Shown here: positions 3,750 to 13,999 of the stretch, in pieces
Layout of the letters: the number at the start of each line of letters is the position of its first letter
How positions within the stretch are numbered: the stretch's first letter is position 1
From: Ancylobacter gelatini
GTDB taxonomy: Bacteria > Pseudomonadota > Alphaproteobacteria > Rhizobiales > Xanthobacteraceae
Reading direction: 5' to 3'
NCBI RefSeq assembly: GCF_022601675.1
Contig: NZ_JAKVIL010000012.1
Location: 1-64,000 of the forward strand
DNA length: 64,000 nucleotides
Program-made: the position numbers and the translations under genes
The notes under the pieces: model-generated
Told to the model about the DNA's origin: nothing
The model's database searches: none
What the model saw: the letters and a program-made list of their open reading frames with translations, nothing else

Positions 3750-5000
3750 TCAGACCGCCTTGGCGTCGTGCAGGGCCGAGATTTCTTCCTGCGAGTAGCC
3801 GAGATCGGCGAGCACTTCGTTGGTGTGCTGGCCAAGCAGCGGCGAGGCGGTCACGTTGACCTCGACGTCCGAGAACTTGATCGGCGAGCCGACGGTCAGG
3901 TACTTGCCGAGCTTGGGATGATCGACCTCGACCACGGTGCCGCTGGCGCGCAGCGACGGGTCATTGGCGATTTCCTTCATCGACAGCACCGGCGCGCAGG
4001 GGATGTCGAACTTGCGCAGGATGTCGATGGCCTCGAACTTGGTCTTGTCGGCCAGCCAGCTCTCGATGAAAGCGAAGATGTCGAAGATCTTGTCCTGGCG
4101 GGCTTCGGCGGTGTTGTAGGCCGGATCGTCGATCCACTCCGGCTTGCCGAGAGCCTTACAGATCGGCGCCCAGGCATGGCCCTGAATGGTGAAGTAGATG
4201 TAGGCGTTCGGGTCGGTTTCCCAGCCCTTGCACTTCAGCACCCAGCCCGGCTGACCGCCGCCGCCGGCATTGCCGCCGCGCGGAACCACGTCCGAGAACT
4301 CGCCGTGCGGGTACTGGGGATACTCTTCGAGATAGCCCAGCGCATCGAGGCGCTGCTGGTCGCGCAGCTTCACGCGGCACAGGTTCAGCACCGAATCCTG
4401 CATCGACACGGCGACCTTCTGGCCCTTGCCGGTCTTCACCTTCTGGTGGAGCGCGGTGAGGATGCCGATGGCGAGGTGCATGCCGGTATTGGAATCGCCG
4501 AGCGCGGCGGCCGAAACCGTCGGCGGGCCGTCCCAGAAGCCGGTGGTGGAGGCGGCGCCGCCGGCGCACTGCGCGACGTTCTCGTAGACCTTCAGGTCCT
4601 CATAGGCATGGCCTTCCGAGAAGCCCTTCACCGAGGCGAGGATCATGCCCGGGTTGAGTTCCTGGATGTGCGCCCAGGTGAAGCCCATGCGATCGAGAGC
4701 GCCGGGGCCGAAATTCTCGACCATCACGTCCGACTCTTTGATCAGCTTGGTGAGGACTTCCTTGCCCTGGGGGGTCTTGGTGTCCAGCGTCAGCGAACGC
4801 TTGTTCGAGTTCAGCATGGTGAAATAGAGCGCGTCGGCGTCCTTGACGTGGCGCAGCTGCGAACGGGTGACGTCGCCCGCGCCGGGACGCTCGACCTTGA
4901 TCACGTCGGCGCCGAACCAGGCCAGGAGCTGCGTGCAGGCGGGACCCGCCTGAACGTGCGTGAAGTCGATGATCTTAATACCTTCGAGCGGCTTAGTCAT
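3750..5000 (-). CDS. frc: Formyl-CoA:oxalate CoA-transferase (paralog 1)
   Basis: Class III CoA-transferase (CaiB/BaiF family, 416 aa) that moves CoA from formyl-CoA to oxalate, giving oxalyl-CoA and formate. It closely follows the Oxalobacter formigenes enzyme: the N-terminus is [12 protein letters not shown], the catalytic aspartate is at the same number (D169 in LGDSNTG), Y139 lies in KVYENVAQC, and the flexible glycine loop is intact ([11 protein letters not shown], residues 241-251). It is the last gene of a minus-strand series with oxc and the second CoA-transferase. A terminator follows and a 19-bp palindrome lies upstream, so it may have its own promoter. Confidence 0.95.
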
Positions 5001-5285: not shown

Positions 5286-6563
5286 TCATTCGGCGGCGAG
5301 CGCCACCGGCGTGCCGACCGCGCCGGACGCCTTGACCTTGGCGATCTCGTCGCTGCTGAGGCCGAGCACGGAGGCGAGGATTTCCTCGGTGTGCTCGCCG
5401 AGCAGCGGCGAGCGCTCGACCGACACGTCATTGTCCGACAGCTTGATCGGGTTGCCGACGGTCAGGTAGGCGCCGCGGGTCGGGTGCTCGACCTCCACCA
5501 GCGTGCCGGTCTCGTAGAGCGAACGCTCCTCGGCGATCTCCTTCATGGAGAGCACCGGCCCGCACGGGATGTCGTACTCGTTGAGGATGTCCATCGCCTC
5601 GAACTTGGTGTGGGCCATGGTCCACGCCTCGATGCGATGGAAGATCTCGTTGAGATGCGGCAGGCGACCGGCCGGGGTCGCGTAGTCGGGATGGGTCTTC
5701 CAGTCCGGCTCGCCGATCACGTCGCAGATCTTCGCCCAGACCGGGGCCTGGGTGATGAAGTAGATATAGGCGTTGGGATCGTGCTCCCAGCCCTTGCACT
5801 TCAGGATGCGGCCGGGCTGGCCGCCGCCGGAATCGTTGCCGGCGCGGGGAACCGCGTCGCCGAACGGGTGGCCTTCGCCGAACTGGCTGTATTCGCGCAG
5901 CGGGCCGCGCTCCAGGCGCTGCTGGTCGCGCATCTTCACGCGGCACAGATTCAGCACCGCGTCCTGCATGGCGCACAGCACCTTCTGGCCGCGGCCGGTC
6001 AGCGTGCGCTGGTACAGCGCGGTGACGATGCCGAGCGCGAGGTGCAGGCCGGTGCCGGAATCGCCGATCTGGGCGGCGGTGACCAGCGGCAGGCCGTCGC
6101 GGAAGCCGGTGGTCGAGGCCGAGCCGCCGGTGCACTGGGCGACGTTCTCATAGACCTTGCAGTCCTCGAAGGGACCGGGGCCGAAGCCCTTGACCGAGGC
6201 AAGGATGATGCGCGGGTTGATCTCCTGGATGCGCTCCCAGGTGAAGCCCATGCGATCGAGGGCGCCCGGCGCGAAATTCTCGACCATCACGTCGCACATC
6301 TTGACCAGATCCTCGAGCACCTTCTTGCCCTCGGGGTTCTTGGTGTCGAGCGTGATGGAACGCTTGTTGGAGTTCAACATCGTGAAATAAAGACTGTCCG
6401 CGTTCGGGACGTCGCGCAGCTGGCCGCGCGTGACGTCGCCTTCGCCCGGACGTTCCACCTTGATCACGTCGGCGCCGAACCAAGCCAGAAGCTGGGTGCA
6501 GGACGGGCCAGACTGAACATGGGTGAAATCGAGGACGCGAACGCCGTCGAGTGCCTTGCCCAT
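5286..6563 (-). CDS. Formyl-CoA:oxalate CoA-transferase paralog 2, altered glycine loop
   Basis: Second CaiB/BaiF-family CoA-transferase, 425 aa, clearly a paralog of the downstream frc (shared [18 protein letters not shown] start). The catalytic aspartate is D168 in IGDSGTG. The tetraglycine loop of Frc reads NDSGGGQP here, so its first Gly is Ser. The protein could be a second Frc of the E. coli YfdW type or could use another acyl-CoA donor such as acetyl- or succinyl-CoA. The ATG at 6563 is chosen over an upstream ATG because GAGAGGAA precedes it and the protein then aligns with frc from residue 1. It lies 212 bp downstream of oxc. Confidence 0.88.
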
Positions 6564-6775
6564 GGGGTTCCTCTCGAGAATGGTTAGCTCGGCTTTGTTT
6601 TTATTGCCGATTGCTGGTGTGACTTCGGAGATCACGGACGGGACGCACGTTTCCCGGCCGCTTCGGGCCCCGCCGGGCCGGGCTGTCGTCCGGCGGAAGG
6701 CGGGGTCCTGGCTGGTGACCCGAGGGGGCCGGCCGGGGCGGATGAGCGCCGGCCGGTACCTGCCTCAGGCAGGCA

Positions 6776-8518
6776 TCACTTCTTCTTGCCGACCACGCTC
6801 TGCGGGTTGAGGCTGCCGATATTGCCGCTCTCGGAGCCGGCGGCCGGATCGATCGCCGCGTTGATGAGGGTCGGCTTGCCGCTGTCCATCGAGGCTTCGA
6901 CGGCGCTGCGCAGTTCGTCCGGGGTGGTGACGTGGTAGCCGACGCCCCCGAAGGCTTCCATCATCTTGTCGTAGCGCGAGTCCGGCACGAACACGGTGGT
7001 CGCGGGATCGCGGCCGGTCGGGTCGACGTCGACGCCGCGGTAGATGCCGTTATTGTTGAAGACCACCACGGTGACCGGCAGGTTGTAGCGGCAGATCGTC
7101 TCCACCTCCATGCCGGAGAAGCCGAAGGCCGAGTCGCCCTCGACCGCCAGGACCGGCTGGCCGGTCTCGACCGCCGCGCCGACCGCGAAGCCCATGCCGA
7201 TGCCCATCACGCCCCAGGTGCCGACGTCCAGGCGCTTGCGCGGCTTGTACATGTCGATGATGCCGCGGGCGAGGTCGAGCGTGTTGGCGCCTTCATTGAC
7301 CAGGATCGCGTCGGGGCGGGCCGCCATCACGTCCTTGAGAACGCCGAGCGCCGAGTGGAAGTCCATCGGGGAGGAGTTCTTCTTCAGGCGGGGCGCCATC
7401 TTGGCGATGTTGGCTTCCTTGCGGGTCTTCAGCGTGCCGACCCAGTCGGCCGGAGCCGCCGGCCAGGAGCTGTCGATACCGGCGTTCAGCGCGGCGATGA
7501 CCGAGCCGATGTCGCCGACCAGCGGAGCGACGATCTCGACGTTCGAGTCCATTTCCTTGGGCTCGATGTCGATCTGGATGAACTTCTTGGAACCGGGCTC
7601 GCCCCAGGTCTTGCCCTTGCCGTGCGACAGCAGCCAGTTCAGGCGGGCGCCGACCAGGACCACGACGTCGGAGTCCTTGAGGGCCACCGAGCGGGCGGCG
7701 CCGGCGGACTGCTCATGGGTGTCGGGCAGCAGGCCCTTGGCCATGGACATCGGCAGGAACGGGATGCCGGTCTTCTCGACGAATTCGCGGATTTCCTCGT
7801 CGGCCTGCGCGTAGGCCGCGCCCTTGCCGAGGATGATCAGCGGCTTCTTGGCGGACTTCAGCACGTCCAGCGCGCGCTTCACGGCGGCGGGGGCGGGGAG
7901 CTGGGCCGGGGCGGCGTCGATGACCTTGACCAGCGACTTCTCGCCTTCGGCCGCATCCATCACCTGCGAGAACAGCTTGGCCGGCAGGTCGAGATAGACG
8001 CCGCCGGGACGGCCCGAGACCGCCGCGCGGATCGCGCGGGCCACGCCGATGCCGATATCGGCGGCGTGCAGCACGCGGAACGCCGCCTTGCACAGCGGCT
8101 TGGCGATGGCGAGCTGGTCCATCTCCTCATAGTCGCCCTGCTGGAGGTCGACGATCTCGCGCTCGGAGGAGCCGGAGATGAGGATCATGGGGAAGCAGTT
8201 GGTGGTGGCGTTCGCCAGCGCGGTCAGGCCGTTGAGGAAGCCGGGCGCGGAAACGGTCAGGCAGATGCCGGGCTTCTTGGTGAGGAAGCCGGCGATCGCG
8301 GCGGCGTTGCCGGCGTTCTGCTCATGGCGGAACGAGATCACCCGGATGCCTTCGGCCTGCGCCATGCGGCCGAGATCGGTGATCGGAATGCCGGGCACGC
8401 CGTAAATGGTATCGATGCCGTTGAGTTTGAGCGCATCGATGACGAGGTGAAAGCCGTCGGTGAGCTCCTGCTCTTCTGCGCCGGCGTTGACGTCGATGAC
8501 TTGTGCGACTGCGGACAT
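6776..8518 (-). CDS. oxc: Oxalyl-CoA decarboxylase
   Basis: ThDP-dependent decarboxylase converting oxalyl-CoA to formyl-CoA and CO2. It is 580 aa. E66 in [13 protein letters not shown] is the conserved ThDP-activating glutamate. The ThDP/Mg motif runs from GDSAFGFSG (461-469) to FNNNG (487-491). The segment [23 protein letters not shown] belongs to the central nucleotide-binding domain typical of this family. The formyl-CoA product is the CoA donor for frc, so both enzymes form a cycle. Upstream, 42 bp away and codirectional, is a GntR regulator, suggesting co-transcription. Confidence 0.96.
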
Positions 8519-8560: not shown

Positions 8561-9307
8561 CTAATCTAAATCTACATGGCTCTCGACGTGCCGGGCCAGC
8601 CGGAGCGTGTGGTCCCGGACCAGCCTTTCGGCACGGTCCGCGTCCCGTGCCTCGAGAGCGAGGATGATCTCCTGATGGTCGGCCGCCGAACGCTGCGCCC
8701 GGTCCATTTCGAAGATCGTGCGATGGCGGATGGCCCGAACATGGAAGAACAGGTTGTCCGTCATCGCGGCGAGCAGAGAGGAGCCGCTCAGCCGGATCAA
8801 GCCCTGGTGGAAGGCGATATTCGCGGAGGAATAGTCGTCGTTCCGTTCACGCTCGATCCGAGAAGTATCGAACTCCTTGTAGTAGGCCCTTAATTCGGCG
8901 ATCGCCTCGTCGCTGGCACGCAGCGTGGCAAGACGGGCCGCCATACTTTCCAGTGCCGCCCAGGCCTCGATCATTTCGATGATCTCGGCCTTGGTGCGGC
9001 GAACCACCAAAATTCCCCGCCGGGGCACGGCGCGGAGCAGGCCTTCCTGCTCCAGCATCGCGACCGCCTCGCGGACGGGCGTCCGGCTTGCGCCCAGACG
9101 CTCCGAAATATCCCGCTCGTCGAGCAGCACCGGCTCGTTGGAGCCGTAGATGTTCATGTTGGTGATAGCTTCCTTGAGGGCGGCGTAGGCCTTGCTCTTG
9201 AAGCTCTCCTTGGCCGGCAGGCGCTCGATGGACAAGCCATGGTCGCCGCTCTGCCAACGCTTATTCAGAACTGCCTTGCTGCTCACACGAATGTCCTCGG
9301 AGGACAT
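8561..9307 (-). CDS. GntR-family (FCD) regulator, paralog 1, next to oxc
   Basis: A 248-aa protein with an N-terminal winged HTH (ISERLGASRTPVREAVAML, then EGLLRAVPRRGILV) and a C-terminal all-helical FCD ligand domain with the usual His/Asp positions (NIAFHQGLIRLSG, DHQEIILALEARD). The start at 9307 (MSSEDIRV) is preferred over one at 9355: GAGGA lies upstream, and the longer form would bury the operator-like site at 9331-9345 in coding sequence. It is paralogous to the GntR gene at 9583. Position just before oxc suggests control of oxalate genes; the ligand may be oxalate, oxalyl-CoA or formyl-CoA (inference). Confidence 0.88.
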   Translation of the reverse strand: MSSEDIRVSSKAVLNKRWQSGDHGLSIERLPAKESFKSKAYAALKEAITNMNIYGSNEPVLLDERDISERLGASRTPVREAVAMLEQEGLLRAVPRRGILVVRRTKAEIIEMIEAWAALESMAARLATLRASDEAIAELRAYYKEFDTSRIERERNDDYSSANIAFHQGLIRLSGSSLLAAMTDNLFFHVRAIRHRTIFEMDRAQRSAADHQEIILALEARDADRAERLVRDHTLRLARHVESHVDLD

Positions 9308-9330
9308 ACCCGCAGGAGTCCTCTGAATTT

Positions 9331-9345
9331 GGCATACCAAATACC
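9331..9345. promoter_or_regulatory. GGYAT-type operator candidate upstream of gntR paralog 1
   Basis: GGCATACCAAATACC has arms GGCAT/ATACC around 5 bp and lies 24 bp upstream of the proposed start at 9307. It matches the site upstream of the second GntR gene (10412) at 12 of 15 positions. In its wider context it shares TTGGCATAC with the site before the second transporter (12384). Confidence 0.6.
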
Positions 9346-9460
9346 AACATGTCAATCGGATATCCCCATAGCCGGGGATGGCGGCGCTCCTTTTTCCCTA
9401 GCGTAACGAGCGGCGGCCCGACCTTTCTGTGAAGGCCTTTTGGCGTGGCTACCATCGTTG

Positions 9461-9475
9461 CGTATGCAATATACC
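9461..9475. promoter_or_regulatory. Weaker GGYAT-type site between the two gntR genes
   Basis: CGTATGCAATATACC; its reverse complement GGTATATTGCATACG has the same GGYAT-N5-ATRC layout as the other sites. It sits in the 275-bp spacer between the two GntR genes. Support is by similarity only. Confidence 0.35.
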
Positions 9476-9582
9476 ACGACATTTTCCGCGTGGCGAGGGC
9501 GCGCGAACAGTTTGATGTCCGCGAGAGCAGAAAGTTCTCGATCCGCTGGCGCGCTACGCGCTCAAATGGCGCGGGCGCTGGC

Positions 9583-10284
9583 TCAGGACGGGAATTTCCC
9601 GTGCTTTTCCACATGGGCGGCGAGGCCCAGAGTGTGCTCGCGCACCAGCCGTTCCGCGAGGTCGGCATCGCGGGCCACCAGTGCGGTGATGATGGCGCGG
9701 TGCTCCTGCAGCGAGCGCTCCGAGCGATTCTCCTGGCGCACCGACACCGCGCGGATGCCGCGGATGTGGATGAACAGGTTCTCGGTCATCTCGCCGATCA
9801 TCGCGCAGCCCGAGAGCCGGATGACGGTCTGGTGGAACCGGATATTGGCGTCGGAATATTCGTTCATATGCTCGGAGGGTGCCCCGCCCTCGAAGTCATG
9901 GAACATGTCGCGCAGGCTGGCGAGGTCGCGCTCGCTCGCGCGGGTGGCGGCAAGGCGGGCGGCCATGCTCTCCAGCGCGGCCCACACGGTGATCATCTCG
10001 ATGATCTCGCGCTTCGACTTGCGGACCACGAAGATTCCGCGCCGGGGAACGGAGCGCACGAAGCCTTCCTGCTCCAGCACGGTGAGCGCTTCCCGGATCG
10101 GGGTGCGGCTCACGCCGAGGTCGGCGGAGAGCTGCCGTTCGTCCAGACGGATCTCGTTGTCCTGGCCATACATGTCCATCTCGGTGATGGCTTTCTTGAT
10201 GGCGTCGTAGGCCAGCGTCCGCAGGCTGGTATTGGCGGCGAGAGGGGCGATGTTGAGGCGGGTCTGGGTATCGGCGGCTTCCAC
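9583..10284 (-). CDS. GntR-family (FCD) regulator, paralog 2
   Basis: A 233-aa regulator with a winged HTH (LSADLGVSRTPIREALTVL, VPRRGIFVVRKSKREIIEM) and an FCD domain (NIRFHQTVIRLSGC, EHRAIITALVARDADLAERL). It is closely similar to the neighbouring regulator at 8561, so the two arose by duplication. The start is GTG at 10284, with GAGGA nine bases upstream. It is divergent from the first OFA transporter (10718), and the 433-bp spacer holds two copies of the shared operator-like motif. Likely roles are autoregulation and control of oxalate uptake. Confidence 0.87.
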   Translation of the reverse strand: MEAADTQTRLNIAPLAANTSLRTLAYDAIKKAITEMDMYGQDNEIRLDERQLSADLGVSRTPIREALTVLEQEGFVRSVPRRGIFVVRKSKREIIEMITVWAALESMAARLAATRASERDLASLRDMFHDFEGGAPSEHMNEYSDANIRFHQTVIRLSGCAMIGEMTENLFIHIRGIRAVSVRQENRSERSLQEHRAIITALVARDADLAERLVREHTLGLAAHVEKHGKFPS

Positions 10285-10411
10285 GGGCGGCGTCCTCGTC
10301 GGTCAGGTGTCTTATTGTTGTTTTGTCTTGTTTTTTCTGTTCCGGCGCGACGGCCGCGAGCCCTTGCCGGTGGGCGCGGGCGGCGGCACGGCACGCCTGA
10401 TTCTCGAATGC

Positions 10412-10426
10412 GGCATTCCAGATGCC
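10412..10426. promoter_or_regulatory. GGYAT-type operator candidate upstream of gntR paralog 2
   Basis: GGCATTCCAGATGCC has perfect arms GGCAT/ATGCC with a 5-bp centre. It lies about 128 bp upstream of the GTG start of the second GntR gene, in the divergent spacer toward the first OFA transporter. It matches the site at 9331 at 12 of 15 positions. Confidence 0.6.
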
Positions 10427-10565
10427 AAGCATTATCTATCGCGCCCCGAATGTCCATTGCGGGCGCTTTTTCGGCCAAACCTCACGCAACGTAAGAAGTG
10501 CCAAAGTATTACGTATGGGAATATGACCCTGCGTAAATACCGTGCTGTGAAAATTTCGCAAGGCT

Positions 10566-10580
10566 GGTATTCATAATATT
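10566..10580. promoter_or_regulatory. GGYAT-type operator candidate upstream of the first OFA transporter
   Basis: GGTATTCATAATATT, followed by GC, lies 138 bp before the transporter start. It matches the site before the second OFA transporter (12384) at 14 of 17 positions including the flank, and shares the GGYATWC half with the GntR-promoter sites. The surrounding 10440-10690 is visibly AT-rich, as promoters in this genome would be. The rest of the 10285-10717 spacer holds no gene I can support. Confidence 0.55.
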
Positions 10581-10717
10581 GCATTCTCGGAAAAATGCCT
10601 TATGCGTTGGGTAATGGCTCCCTCGGTATCTTGCGGAAGCAGGGTGACCGTTAGCGTATTCAACAAAAATAATAGAGCTATTGCGAGCAATTACGTTGGG
10701 AAACGTTCGAGGAAACA

Positions 10718-12022
10718 ATGGAAACTACCGCAGCGGCATCTCTGAATAAGACTCGTTGGCTCCAGCTTGCGTTTGGCGTGATCTGCATGTGCATGATCGC
10801 GAACATGCAGTACGGCTGGACGTTCTTCGTCGGCCCGATGCAGGAACGCCATGGCTGGGATCGCGCGGCGATCCAGGTCGCGTTCTCGATCTTCATCGTC
10901 ACCGAGACCTGGCTGGTGCCGGTCGAGGGCTGGTTCGTGGACAAGTACGGCCCGCGCATCGTCGTGCTGTTCGGCGGCCTGATGTGCGGCCTGGCCTGGG
11001 TGATGAACTCCTATGCCACCACCCTCACCGTGCTCTACATCGCTGCGGCGGTCGGCGGCATCGGCGCCGGCGCGGTGTACGGCACCTGCGTGGGTAACTC
11101 GCTCAAGTGGTTCCCGGACAAGCGCGGCCTGGCGGCCGGCATCACCGCGGCCGGCTTCGGCGCGGGCTCGGCCCTGACCGTGATCCCGATCCAGAACATG
11201 ATCAAGAACCAGGGTTACGAGGCGGCGTTCCTGTATTTCGGCCTCGCCCAGGGTATCGTCATCACCGTGCTGGCCCTGTTCCTCATGGCGCCGAAGAAGG
11301 ACCAGATCGCGGCGGCCGCGAAGAGGGTTGCCGCCAGTGTCGCCCAGTCGGCCCGCGACTTCTCGCCCAAGGAAATGCTGACCACCCCGCTGTTCTGGGT
11401 GATGTACGCCATGTTCGTCATGATGGCCGCCGGCGGCCTGATGGCGACCGCTCAGCTCGGCCCGATCGCCAAGGATTTCGGCATCGCCGACGTTCCCGTC
11501 AGCCTGATCGGCATCACCCTGCCGGCCCTGACCTTCGCTGCCGCCATCGACCGCGTGCTGAACGGCCTCACGCGTCCGTTCTTCGGCTGGGTGTCGGACA
11601 AGATCGGCCGCGAGAACACCATGTTCGTCGCGTTCGCCATCGAGGGCGTCGGCATCTATGCGCTGAGCGTGCTCGGCCACAACCCGGTGCTGTTCGTCAT
11701 CCTCACCGGCCTGGTGTTCTTCGCCTGGGGTGAAATCTACAGCCTGTTCCCCGCCATGTGCGGCGACGCCTTCGGCTCGAAGTTCGCCACCACCAATGCC
11801 GGCCTGCTCTACACCGCCAAGGGCACCGCCGCGATCATCGTGCCGTTCACCAGCATCATCACCACCGTGACGGGCAGCTGGCACGCGGTGTTCGTCTCGG
11901 CCGCCGCGCTCAACATCATCGCCGCGGTCATGGCGCTGGCGATCCTGAAGCCGCTGGCCTCGGCGCATAGCCGCCGCGCCTCGGCCGCCAACAACGCCGC
12001 CAAGGTGATTGCGGCCGAGTAA
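10718..12022 (+). CDS. OFA-family MFS transporter, oxalate/formate antiporter type (1)
   Basis: A 434-aa, 12-TM major facilitator of the oxalate:formate antiporter family. The OxlT substrate-binding charges are conserved: R286 in LNGLTRPFFGW corresponds to OxlT Arg272, and K368 in LLYTAKGTAAI corresponds to Lys355. MFS loop motifs are present (VDKYGPR, KWFPDKRGLA, VSDKIGR). Upstream is an AT-rich leader with a GGYAT-type operator candidate; downstream is a strong terminator at 12051. Import of oxalate in exchange for formate would match the neighbouring frc/oxc pathway. Direction of transport and exact substrate are inferred. Confidence 0.92.
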   Translation: METTAAASLNKTRWLQLAFGVICMCMIANMQYGWTFFVGPMQERHGWDRAAIQVAFSIFIVTETWLVPVEGWFVDKYGPRIVVLFGGLMCGLAWVMNSYATTLTVLYIAAAVGGIGAGAVYGTCVGNSLKWFPDKRGLAAGITAAGFGAGSALTVIPIQNMIKNQGYEAAFLYFGLAQGIVITVLALFLMAPKKDQIAAAAKRVAASVAQSARDFSPKEMLTTPLFWVMYAMFVMMAAGGLMATAQLGPIAKDFGIADVPVSLIGITLPALTFAAAIDRVLNGLTRPFFGWVSDKIGRENTMFVAFAIEGVGIYALSVLGHNPVLFVILTGLVFFAWGEIYSLFPAMCGDAFGSKFATTNAGLLYTAKGTAAIIVPFTSIITTVTGSWHAVFVSAAALNIIAAVMALAILKPLASAHSRRASAANNAAKVIAAE

Positions 12023-12050
12023 TCCGCCCTCAATTTTCCGGGCCTTTTAG

Positions 12051-12080
12051 AAGGGCGCGTCTTCGGACGCGCCCTTTTTC
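12051..12080 (+). terminator. Rho-independent terminator after OFA transporter 1
   Basis: An 11-bp stem, arms AAGGGCGCGTC (12051-12061) and GACGCGCCCTT (12066-12076), with a TTCG tetraloop and a short T tract. It separates the two transporter genes into different transcripts. Confidence 0.88.
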
Positions 12081-12664
12081 GTTCGCGCCTGTGGCAGGGC
12101 GCCGCAGCGCCGTTCAGTTGTGGCAGCGTAATCCGCCCGGTTCCCGACACGGTTCGGCCACCTTCTCAAGTCGTGCCCCATGGTCCCTCGCAATCGAACC
12201 ATGGCAATCGTCGCGGGCTGTTCCTTAGCGTTGCTGATTTTTAATGATCATAAACGGGTTTATAATTAAGGGGAGTCGACTCTATTATCGATATTAATAT
12301 TTGTATTGTCTTATATTGGTGAAGGTTATCCAAGGCGAATGCTTGCATATTCCCGAAATGCGAAGAGTCCATAAAAGGCGATTGGCATACATAATATTGT
12401 CTATTATGATCATCACCATGCGGGTCGGATCCCTCAACCTTGCGTCAGTCGTCGTGCAGCCTGCGCGCGCTGCCGCCGGGACGGTGGGACCGGATCACTG
12501 ATGAACACCCTAAAAGCCGCGCAAGCGGCCGCGGCAGGACGGCGTAGAGCCGGCCTGCGGCCAATAATGTCAAGACGCTGCCGATCCCTGGTCAACGGGG
12601 GCGAGTAGCCGACAAGAACAAGCCGATCCGCGGCGATCATTAATTTTGGAGAGGAGAAACGCCT
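12081..12664 (+). promoter_or_regulatory. Long AT-rich leader of OFA transporter 2
   Basis: A 584-bp stretch without a supported gene. By my count 12241-12420 is about 34% G+C, far below the flanking genes. It contains the operator-like site at 12384. The 66-codon frame at 12301-12501 has no ribosome-binding site and no recognisable domain, so I do not call it. A promoter with a long 5' leader is the simplest reading. Confidence 0.5.
12384..12398. promoter_or_regulatory. GGYAT-type operator candidate upstream of the second OFA transporter
   Basis: GGCATACATAATATT, preceded by TT and followed by GT. It matches the site before the first transporter (10566) at 14 of 17 positions and shares TTGGCATAC with the site before the first GntR gene (9331). 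It lies 267 bp upstream of the transporter start. Confidence 0.55.
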
Positions 12665-13999
12665 GTGAGCGCCTATTCGCAGACGCCGGCGGCCGTGGGG
12701 CCCGGCAAGGATTTTTCGGAAAGCCGTCGCTGGATTCAGCTCGCCGTCGGTGTGGTCTGTATGGTGGCTACGGCCAACATCCAGTACGCCTGGACGCTGT
12801 TCGTGCCTGAAATTCAGGAGACTTTCGGCTGGGAGCGCGCCTCGATCCAGATCGCCTTCACGATCTTCGTGCTGGTGCAGACCTGGCTCGCCCCGATTGA
12901 AGGCTACTTCATCGATAAGCTCGGCCCCCGCTTCATGGTCGCCTTCGGCGCCGTGATGATCGGCACCGCCTGGGTGCTGAACTCGCAGGCCACCACGCTG
13001 TTCGCGTTTTATGTCGCGGCCGCGGTCGGCGGCGTCGGCGTCGGCTGTATCTACGCGACCTGCATCAACAACGCCCTGAAGTGGTTCCCCGATCGCCGCG
13101 GCCTCGCCGTCGGTCTGACCGCGGGCGGCTATGGCGCCGGCTCCGCCGCGACCATCCTGCCGATCGCCGCCATGATCGAGTCCTCGGGCTTCCAGGAGAC
13201 CTTCTTCTTCTTCGGTCTGCTCCAGGGCGGCCTGGCCTTCATCGCGGCGTGGTTCCTGCGCTCGCCGAAGGTTGGCGAAGTGAAGCCCTCCGACAAGCTG
13301 TCGCAGACCCGTCGCGACTACACGCTGAAGGAAGCGCTGAACACCCGCCTGTTCTGGCTGATGCTCCTGATGTTCACCTGCGTCGTCACCGGCGGCATGA
13401 TGGCGGTCGCCCAACTCGGCGTCATCGCGCAGGACCTCGGCGTGAAGGAGTTCAAGGTCAACCTGTACTTCTTCACCATGGCCGCCCTGCCGCTCGCCCT
13501 GATGCTCGACCGCGTCATGAACGGCATCTCGCGTCCGCTCTTCGGCTGGATCTCGGATCATATCGGCCGTGAAAAGACCATGGTCATCGCCTTCTCGCTC
13601 GAAGGCGTCGGCATCATCGCTCTGGGCTATTTCGGTCACAATCCCTGGGCGTTCCTCATCCTCTCGGGCGTCGTGTTCCTGGCCTGGGGTGAAGTCTACT
13701 CGCTGTTCTCGGCGCTGGCGGGCGATGCCTTCGGCACCAAGCACATCGGCAAGATCTACGGCGTGCTCTACACCGCCAAGGGCATCGGCGCGCTGTTCGT
13801 TCCGGTCGGCAACCTGCTGATGGAAGCGACCGGCACCTGGTCGACCGTTCTCTACACCGTCGCTGCCATGGACCTGTTCGCGGCCTTCCTCGCGATCGCC
13901 GTCCTGCCCGGCACGCTGAAGCGGCATGTCGCCAAGTCGATCATCCCATCGGCGCCCGGCGCCGCGGGGGACAAGACGGTGGCTTCGGCCCACGCCTGA
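12665..13999 (+). CDS. OFA-family MFS transporter, oxalate/formate antiporter type (2)
   Basis: A 444-aa paralog of the preceding transporter. OxlT-type charged residues are kept: R290 in MNGISRPLFGW and K372 in VLYTAKGIGAL. MFS loops IDKLGPR, KWFPDRRGLA and ISDHIGR are present. The start is GTG at 12665 behind a strong GGAGAGGAGAAAC site. It has its own leader and is followed by a terminator at 14023. The two copies may differ in affinity or counter-substrate, for example oxalate/formate against oxalate uptake alone; sequence does not decide this. Confidence 0.92.
   Translation: MSAYSQTPAAVGPGKDFSESRRWIQLAVGVVCMVATANIQYAWTLFVPEIQETFGWERASIQIAFTIFVLVQTWLAPIEGYFIDKLGPRFMVAFGAVMIGTAWVLNSQATTLFAFYVAAAVGGVGVGCIYATCINNALKWFPDRRGLAVGLTAGGYGAGSAATILPIAAMIESSGFQETFFFFGLLQGGLAFIAAWFLRSPKVGEVKPSDKLSQTRRDYTLKEALNTRLFWLMLLMFTCVVTGGMMAVAQLGVIAQDLGVKEFKVNLYFFTMAALPLALMLDRVMNGISRPLFGWISDHIGREKTMVIAFSLEGVGIIALGYFGHNPWAFLILSGVVFLAWGEVYSLFSALAGDAFGTKHIGKIYGVLYTAKGIGALFVPVGNLLMEATGTWSTVLYTVAAMDLFAAFLAIAVLPGTLKRHVAKSIIPSAPGAAGDKTVASAHA

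Follow-up and report, generated by a model that had tools for sequence, protein, structure and literature searches.

A stretch of 64,000 nucleotides from Ancylobacter gelatini (contig NZ_JAKVIL010000012.1, positions 1 to 64,000), referred to below as the window, carries genes for oxalate catabolism (oxc, frc) and for two oxalate/formate antiporters (oxlT1 and oxlT2, or T1 and T2), together with two GntR regulator genes, R1 and R2, and short repeated sites in the spacers between them. With a probability of about 0.72, these sites serve as operators in an oxalate regulon that is controlled by related FCD-domain GntR regulators (R1, R2 and R3, the last encoded outside the window), through which both uptake and catabolism of oxalate would be repressed. 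Read from the sites themselves, the shared core is a TGGYAT-N5-ATRCCA dyad, and the sites in the window are the following.

9330..9346, unstranded: site A, TGGCATACCAAATACCA, which fits the TGGYAT-N5-ATRCCA dyad perfectly and lies 23 bp upstream of the likely R1 ATG; identical in 29/29 genomes; site 9331 of an earlier note on this DNA
9462..9476, minus strand: site A2, TGGTATATTGCATAC, the fifth copy of the earlier note; TGGTAT-N5-ATA in 29/29, exact 15-mer in 22/29
10411..10427, unstranded: CGGCATTCCAGATGCCA before R2, private and of uncertain function; 11/12 fit to the dyad, not conserved
10565..10588, plus strand: site B before oxlT1, usual form in relatives TGGTATGCAAAATTTTGCATAACC; 15-bp window with 0.97 mean identity in 29 genomes
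12382..12400, plus strand: site C before oxlT2, TTGGCATACATAATATTGT; identical in 29/29

The earlier note had proposed one shared operator-like motif, GGYATWC-N2-RATRYY, before both regulators and both transporters. Its four 15-mers (9331, 10412, 10566 and 12384) match this pattern on the plus strand without mismatch, exactly where they were said to lie; such a fit is circular, because the pattern was derived from those same sites. The agreement of the regulator 15-mers at 12/15 positions and the presence of TTGGCATAC at both 9331 and 12384 were confirmed, and the transporter 15-mers agree at 13/15. Scanning the window at two mismatches gave 35 matches, against 21.6 +/- 5.3 in shuffled sequence, 35 being reached in 2 of 100 shuffles. 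The genome scans, which were pattern searches rather than searches with weight matrices, included the whole window genome (G000; 4.3 Mb, 20 contigs): 11 exact matches were found, 4 of them inside this 3-kb stretch, versus one for the reversed control. The genome scan that had been suggested as a check did not refute the shared motif for three of the four sites.

Conservation was scored as the mean column identity of 15-bp windows in three aligned spacers, at 29 syntenic loci of the genus along which the gene order frc-oxc-R1-R2 / T1-T2 is kept. These loci, defined by a close R1, come from 29 of the 30 genus genomes; G021 (91% complete, 8% contaminated, no close R1) was left out, and is included in the 30-genome counts for panE2, tctCBA and the L003/L005 places given below. 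Site 12384 has an identity of 1.00 (rank 1/652 windows), site 9331 of 1.00 (rank 2/322), site 10566 of 0.97 (rank 6/470) and A2 of 0.975 (rank 8/322). The alignments look like sharp footprints amid otherwise variable sequence. There are other conserved blocks too, a few windows per spacer ranking equal or higher, some of them near gene starts. Three of the four sites (9331, 10566 and 12384) and the fifth copy are conserved elements. The latter had been called weaker; a copy is indeed present near 9461, but it is strongly conserved. Site B, which the earlier note counted with the asymmetric transporter form, is almost perfectly palindromic in relatives, and this symmetry has decayed in the window genome.

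The situation is different for 10412, whose identity is 0.444 (rank 437/470). Within one mismatch, the motif is found at this position in 0/28 relatives, G023 alone having a 1-mismatch match elsewhere in the same half of the spacer. The alignment of orthologous promoters, another suggested check, supports the shared motif at three sites, linking FCD regulators with both transporters, and fails to do so at 10412, which is private to the window genome. This site may be a private operator, since it fits the dyad at 11/12 positions, for which first-order Markov simulation of its spacer gives a chance of 0.35%, and since it coincides in part with a promoter-like -35. A separate R2 promoter block (ATCGTATAACACATACAGAATGTCCAT-like; window 10425-10455) is kept by many relatives and decayed in the window genome.

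When the 30 genomes of the genus were scanned for TGGYATN5ATRCCA, 103 dyads were found, whereas the reversed control matched twice. Site A (29), the promoter of a panE2-like gene (30) and the 3' side of mtkB (20) account for 79 of the 103, these per-site counts being taken from retrieved sequence stretches and not from the genus listing. The spacing was analysed in 147 promoter pieces, selected because they contain sites: facing box pairs occur 62 times at N5 and 0 times at the remaining spacings from 0 to 16. Same-strand pairs number 31 at spacing 1, where they consist of the paired ATACCA boxes in site A, 23 at spacing 8 and 4 at spacing 15; back-to-back pairs are found at 2, 4, 10 and 11 (16 in total). 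In four whole, unselected genomes, N5 accounts for 15/34 pairs over 17 spacings, the control giving 13 over all spacings. Site A can be read in two ways, either as the canonical TGGCATACCA with a third (ATACCA) box or as a wide dyad. Only the outer N5 boxes are retained at panE2 (30/30) and in several of the dyads 3' of mtkB, which appears to favour the second reading. In sites B and C, the left box is intact and the right side degenerate, site B being better described as TGGTAT-N12-ATAACC.

The regulon looks larger than had been claimed. The earlier pattern also matches TGGCATACAAAATACCA (G000:C2:181527), 45-57 bp before a gene of the 2-dehydropantoate-2-reductase family (panE2-like), which is followed by a fumarylacetoacetate-hydrolase-family gene and then by two genes of the succinate/malate-CoA-ligase type. 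The panE2 dyad is identical in 30/30 genus genomes; its gene lies at the end of contig C2 in the window genome, and about 11 kb from the oxc promoter in relatives such as G017. A second dyad, constant in its boxes and variable in its spacer, is found 3' of mtkB (G000:C2:177152-177168, L231) in 20/29 genomes, the G021 stretch having no mtkB. The genus genomes (30/30) also carry an unlinked tctCBA-R3 cluster, a tripartite tricarboxylate transporter (TTT) with a third FCD regulator (L105, G000:C16:84500-100500; L149-L177 and L179), and the tctC promoter bears an array of similar boxes. The pattern TTGGYATACNTAATA has 44 matches in the 30 genomes and 0 in the control, T2 accounting for 30 of them and the region upstream of tctC for 11; of the remaining 3, two are confined to G000 and the third lies 3' of mtkB in G029. 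Fourteen non-Ancylobacter loci were surveyed, 13 from the family and one from the order: close tct genes lie near frc in L111, L114, L115, L118 and L213, four of which also have oxc, while the tct genes of L119 adjoin an R1-like gene only and L112 has weak tct matches only. The TTT transporter appears thus to be linked to oxalate by gene neighbourhood, and TctCBA is a candidate oxalate importer.

Beyond the genus, TGGYATRCCARATRCCA was searched in 198 genomes of the family, giving 110 matches in 66 genomes and 0 for the reversed control. Most of them (82/110, in 51 genomes) sit 320-1553 bp upstream of oxc. The oxc positions were entered for the motif-match genomes and some others, not for all 141 genomes with oxc; the 14 motif-match genomes lacking such a position are those absent from the oxc search matches. 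At three loci read from genomes without detected oxc (L213, L214 and L219; G056, G068 and G147), the match adjoins an R1-like gene and frc. In Methylobacterium, TGGCATACCAAATACCA adjoins the regulator gene in 10/10 genomes, and of the 3 loci with a T1-like gene, 2 have another dyad about 115-150 bp upstream of that gene. What is found is thus the same site beside linked genes, in several lineages, and rarely elsewhere, as expected of a regulon. Close dyad pairs in the family genomes are spaced by 80-82 bp in 31/32 cases, as if this distance were selected.

The genes of the window and the promoter-like elements adjoining the sites are listed here.

3750..5000, minus strand: second frc; TIGR03253 above cut-off
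5286..6635, minus strand: frc, formyl-CoA transferase; TIGR03253 above cut-off
6776..8518, minus strand: oxc, oxalyl-CoA decarboxylase; TIGR03254 above cut-off
8561..9307, minus strand: R1, FCD-type GntR regulator; Pfam GntR and FCD, start inferred from relatives
9350..9355, minus strand: TTGACA hexamer (-35-like) adjoining site A, for R1-oxc-frc; TTGACA in 27/29, TTGACG in the other two
9583..10284, minus strand: R2, FCD-type GntR regulator; Pfam GntR and FCD
10718..12022, plus strand: oxlT1 (T1), oxalate/formate antiporter; TIGR04259 671 bits, cut-off 335
12382..12410, plus strand: promoter-like TTGGCA-17-TATGAT overlapping site C; TTGGCA-17-TANNNT in 29/29
12665..13999, plus strand: oxlT2 (T2), oxalate/formate antiporter; TIGR04259 581 bits, cut-off 335

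Promoter matches of this kind are consensus fits and no proof by themselves. They recur at other sites: the promoter-like match at 9496-9468 has a -10 that overlaps A2, and a CTTGAC hexamer lies upstream of the panE2 dyad in 30/30 genomes. R1 and oxc are co-oriented, with a gap of roughly 45-80 bp in 22/29 genomes and of 210-280 bp in 7, so that oxc and frc are probably transcribed from the R1 promoter as well. Since R1-oxc-frc is probably one operon, site A would mainly mark a catabolic promoter. For R2, control by the motif is doubtful, because 10412 is not conserved. In the mechanism favoured here, a regulator dimer would recognise a pair of TGGYAT boxes that face each other with 5 bp between them, or variants in which the second box is degenerate or farther away. 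As long as no inducer is present, the dimer would occupy or adjoin the promoters of R1-oxc-frc (A, A2) and of both antiporters (B, C), as well as those of panE2 and tctCBA-R3 outside the window. A protein bound at these promoter-overlapping sites would most simply block transcription, and would be released by a ligand derived from oxalate, such as oxalate itself or oxalyl-CoA.

Both regulators belong to the FCD (FadR) subfamily of GntR regulators by domain cut-offs. In Pfam profile searches, R1 scores 41.8 bits for GntR (cut-off 27) and 82.4 for FCD (cut-off 24.3), and R2 scores 45.7 and 95.8 bits, above the curated cut-offs. R1 and R2 are 55% identical, R3 and R1 52%, and an SRTPxREA recognition helix is common to all three (12 aligned sequences). 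A midpoint-rooted tree was built from 55 sequences, covering 10/29 Ancylobacter genomes and 25 other loci, with L119 on a long, unsure branch. Ancylobacter R2 groups with regulators of Methylobacterium and some Xanthobacteraceae, R1 with those of oxalate loci in other genera, and R3 with the tct-linked L115; the R1/R2/R3 duplication therefore predates the genus.

Operators of the FadR subfamily are described, in the part of PMC4494728 that covers them, as palindromic boxes near TKGT/ACMA with GT and AC 2-3 nt apart, and with extra half-sites 7-12 nt from the centre. The present system shares the GntR and FCD domains and boxes of the TKGT/ACMA type, site A being readable as TGGCATACCA plus one ATACCA box. 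In contrast, the conserved outer boxes are here 5 bp apart (9 nt from GT to AC) and the spacer varies by site, so the operator spacing is possibly unusual. The same source reports that NanR, another FCD regulator with structures 6on4, 6wfq and 6wg7, binds direct repeats of TGGTATAW. The half-site TGGTAT(A) is shared with NanR, but the NanR model gives only weak matches for R1 and R2 (63.2 and 68.8 bits), far below its cut-off of 260. In the present system, the boxes mostly face each other and the targets are oxalate genes. Among known proteins, the closest counterparts of the panE2-like gene product are PanE2 of Methylobacterium extorquens, described in PMC8411744 as a putative oxalyl-CoA reductase, and ApbA2 of Cupriavidus necator (PMC7486775). 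The Ancylobacter panE2-like gene shares with them the protein family (2-dehydropantoate 2-reductase) and the pathway node, its function being predicted. The passages on PanE2 and ApbA2 in these papers name no regulator or operator, and the Methylobacterium homologues have no dyad nearby.

Among the titles and abstracts found in the open-licence PubMed Central literature, none dealt with regulation of oxc, frc or oxlT by a GntR protein or with an operator of these genes, subscription literature lying outside this scope, and the same open-licence collection gave nothing relevant on oxalate with GntR or a TTT transporter. The words "regulator", "GntR" and "tricarboxylate" do not occur in the accessible portion of an oxalate-pathway survey (PMC12927642), and PMC5987411, as far as its excerpts go, mentions GntR only within lists of regulator families.

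It is unlikely that a transcription factor other than the FCD regulators binds the sites. Some dyads do have no R gene in their neighbourhood (those at panE2, 3' of mtkB and at C10:390092), but the dyad adjoins an R-type gene in Methylobacterium and in the family loci read, and TGGTAT boxes are already known for the FCD regulator NanR. The sites could also be conserved core-promoter elements of oxalate genes, with TTGGCA-like -35 hexamers and AT-rich spacers, rather than operators. As this explanation would have it, the region's best promoter-like match has its -35 in site C, and A2 overlaps a promoter-like -10. However, invariance extends over all 19 bp of C and all 17 bp of A, including the spacers, the hexamer at panE2 is followed by the dyad and does not contain it, and box pairs with a fixed N5 recur by oxalate genes across families, which makes a pure promoter role highly improbable.

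The earlier note had proposed that the two paralogs have separate targets, marked by a symmetric form for the regulators and an asymmetric form for the transporters. Two site forms do exist and R1 and R2 differ in sequence, yet there is very little chance that this division is right, as these are old paralogs with the same helix, 10412 is not conserved and site B is palindromic in relatives. The same TGGCATACCAAATACCA is found both at R1-type regulator loci (L114, L116) and at R2-type loci (Methylobacterium). Moreover, both forms occur in Methylobacterium loci, one as the A-type dyad and the other as TGGTATRCANAAT-type sites upstream of T1, while 9/10 of these genomes have only one regulator homologue of at least 45% identity; the site forms need not therefore mark separate regulators. 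Overlapping binding by the paralogs seems more likely.

Several observations weigh against an oxalate regulon under FCD control. Besides the unconserved R2-side site, sites B and C have no clean second box, and the constancy of site C may in part be a promoter constraint. The mtkB 3' dyad lies between apparently convergent genes, with no evident promoter role. Among the family matches, 13/110 are far from oxc and 15/110 (14 genomes) occur in genomes without detected oxc. Conversely, oxc is present in 141/198 family genomes and the exact 17-mer near oxc in only 51, so that most oxc genomes are without it. At the four Methylobacterium loci read, the dyad copy is 700-820 bp upstream of the second frc, another open frame lying between them in one, and no dyad was found within 1 kb of the panE2-like gene (47-50% identical) in 10/10 Methylobacterium genomes. 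Finally, a perfect dyad in the window genome, TGGCATACCAGATGCCA (G000:C10:390092-390108, L215), has no oxalate, tct or R gene within the 12 kb read.

If the sites are operators of such a regulon, the regulators and their exact sites would be named, a set of target genes predicted (oxc, frc, two oxlT, panE2-mtkAB and tctCBA), and a TTT transporter put forward as a candidate for oxalate import. Oxalate breakdown by bacteria contributes to carbonate formation in soil and to the removal of oxalate from the gut. A wider picture is possible rather than probable, in which the oxalate regulon would span at least Xanthobacteraceae and Methylobacterium, three ancient FCD paralogs would share one widened operator code, and tctCBA would be an unrecognised oxalate uptake system beside OxlT.

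A few other matches in the window genome stand apart. Copies of TTGGTATACRTAATA occur at L003:1501-1515 and L005:1501-1515, places matched in G000 only among the 30 genus genomes. Both were discarded as regulon sites on account of this private occurrence, L003 lying before a solute-binding protein gene and L005 between two TerC-like genes (named by eye). L004 was rejected as well, its match falling inside an open reading frame. A 24-bp near-palindrome beginning with TGGTATACAGAATTC (L302:3907-3930, G000:C1) resembles site B and is present in the 4/4 genomes searched (L302, L303-L305); it is flanked by pyruvate-carboxylase-like and pyruvate-kinase-like genes (named by eye), an order read in L302 and L303.

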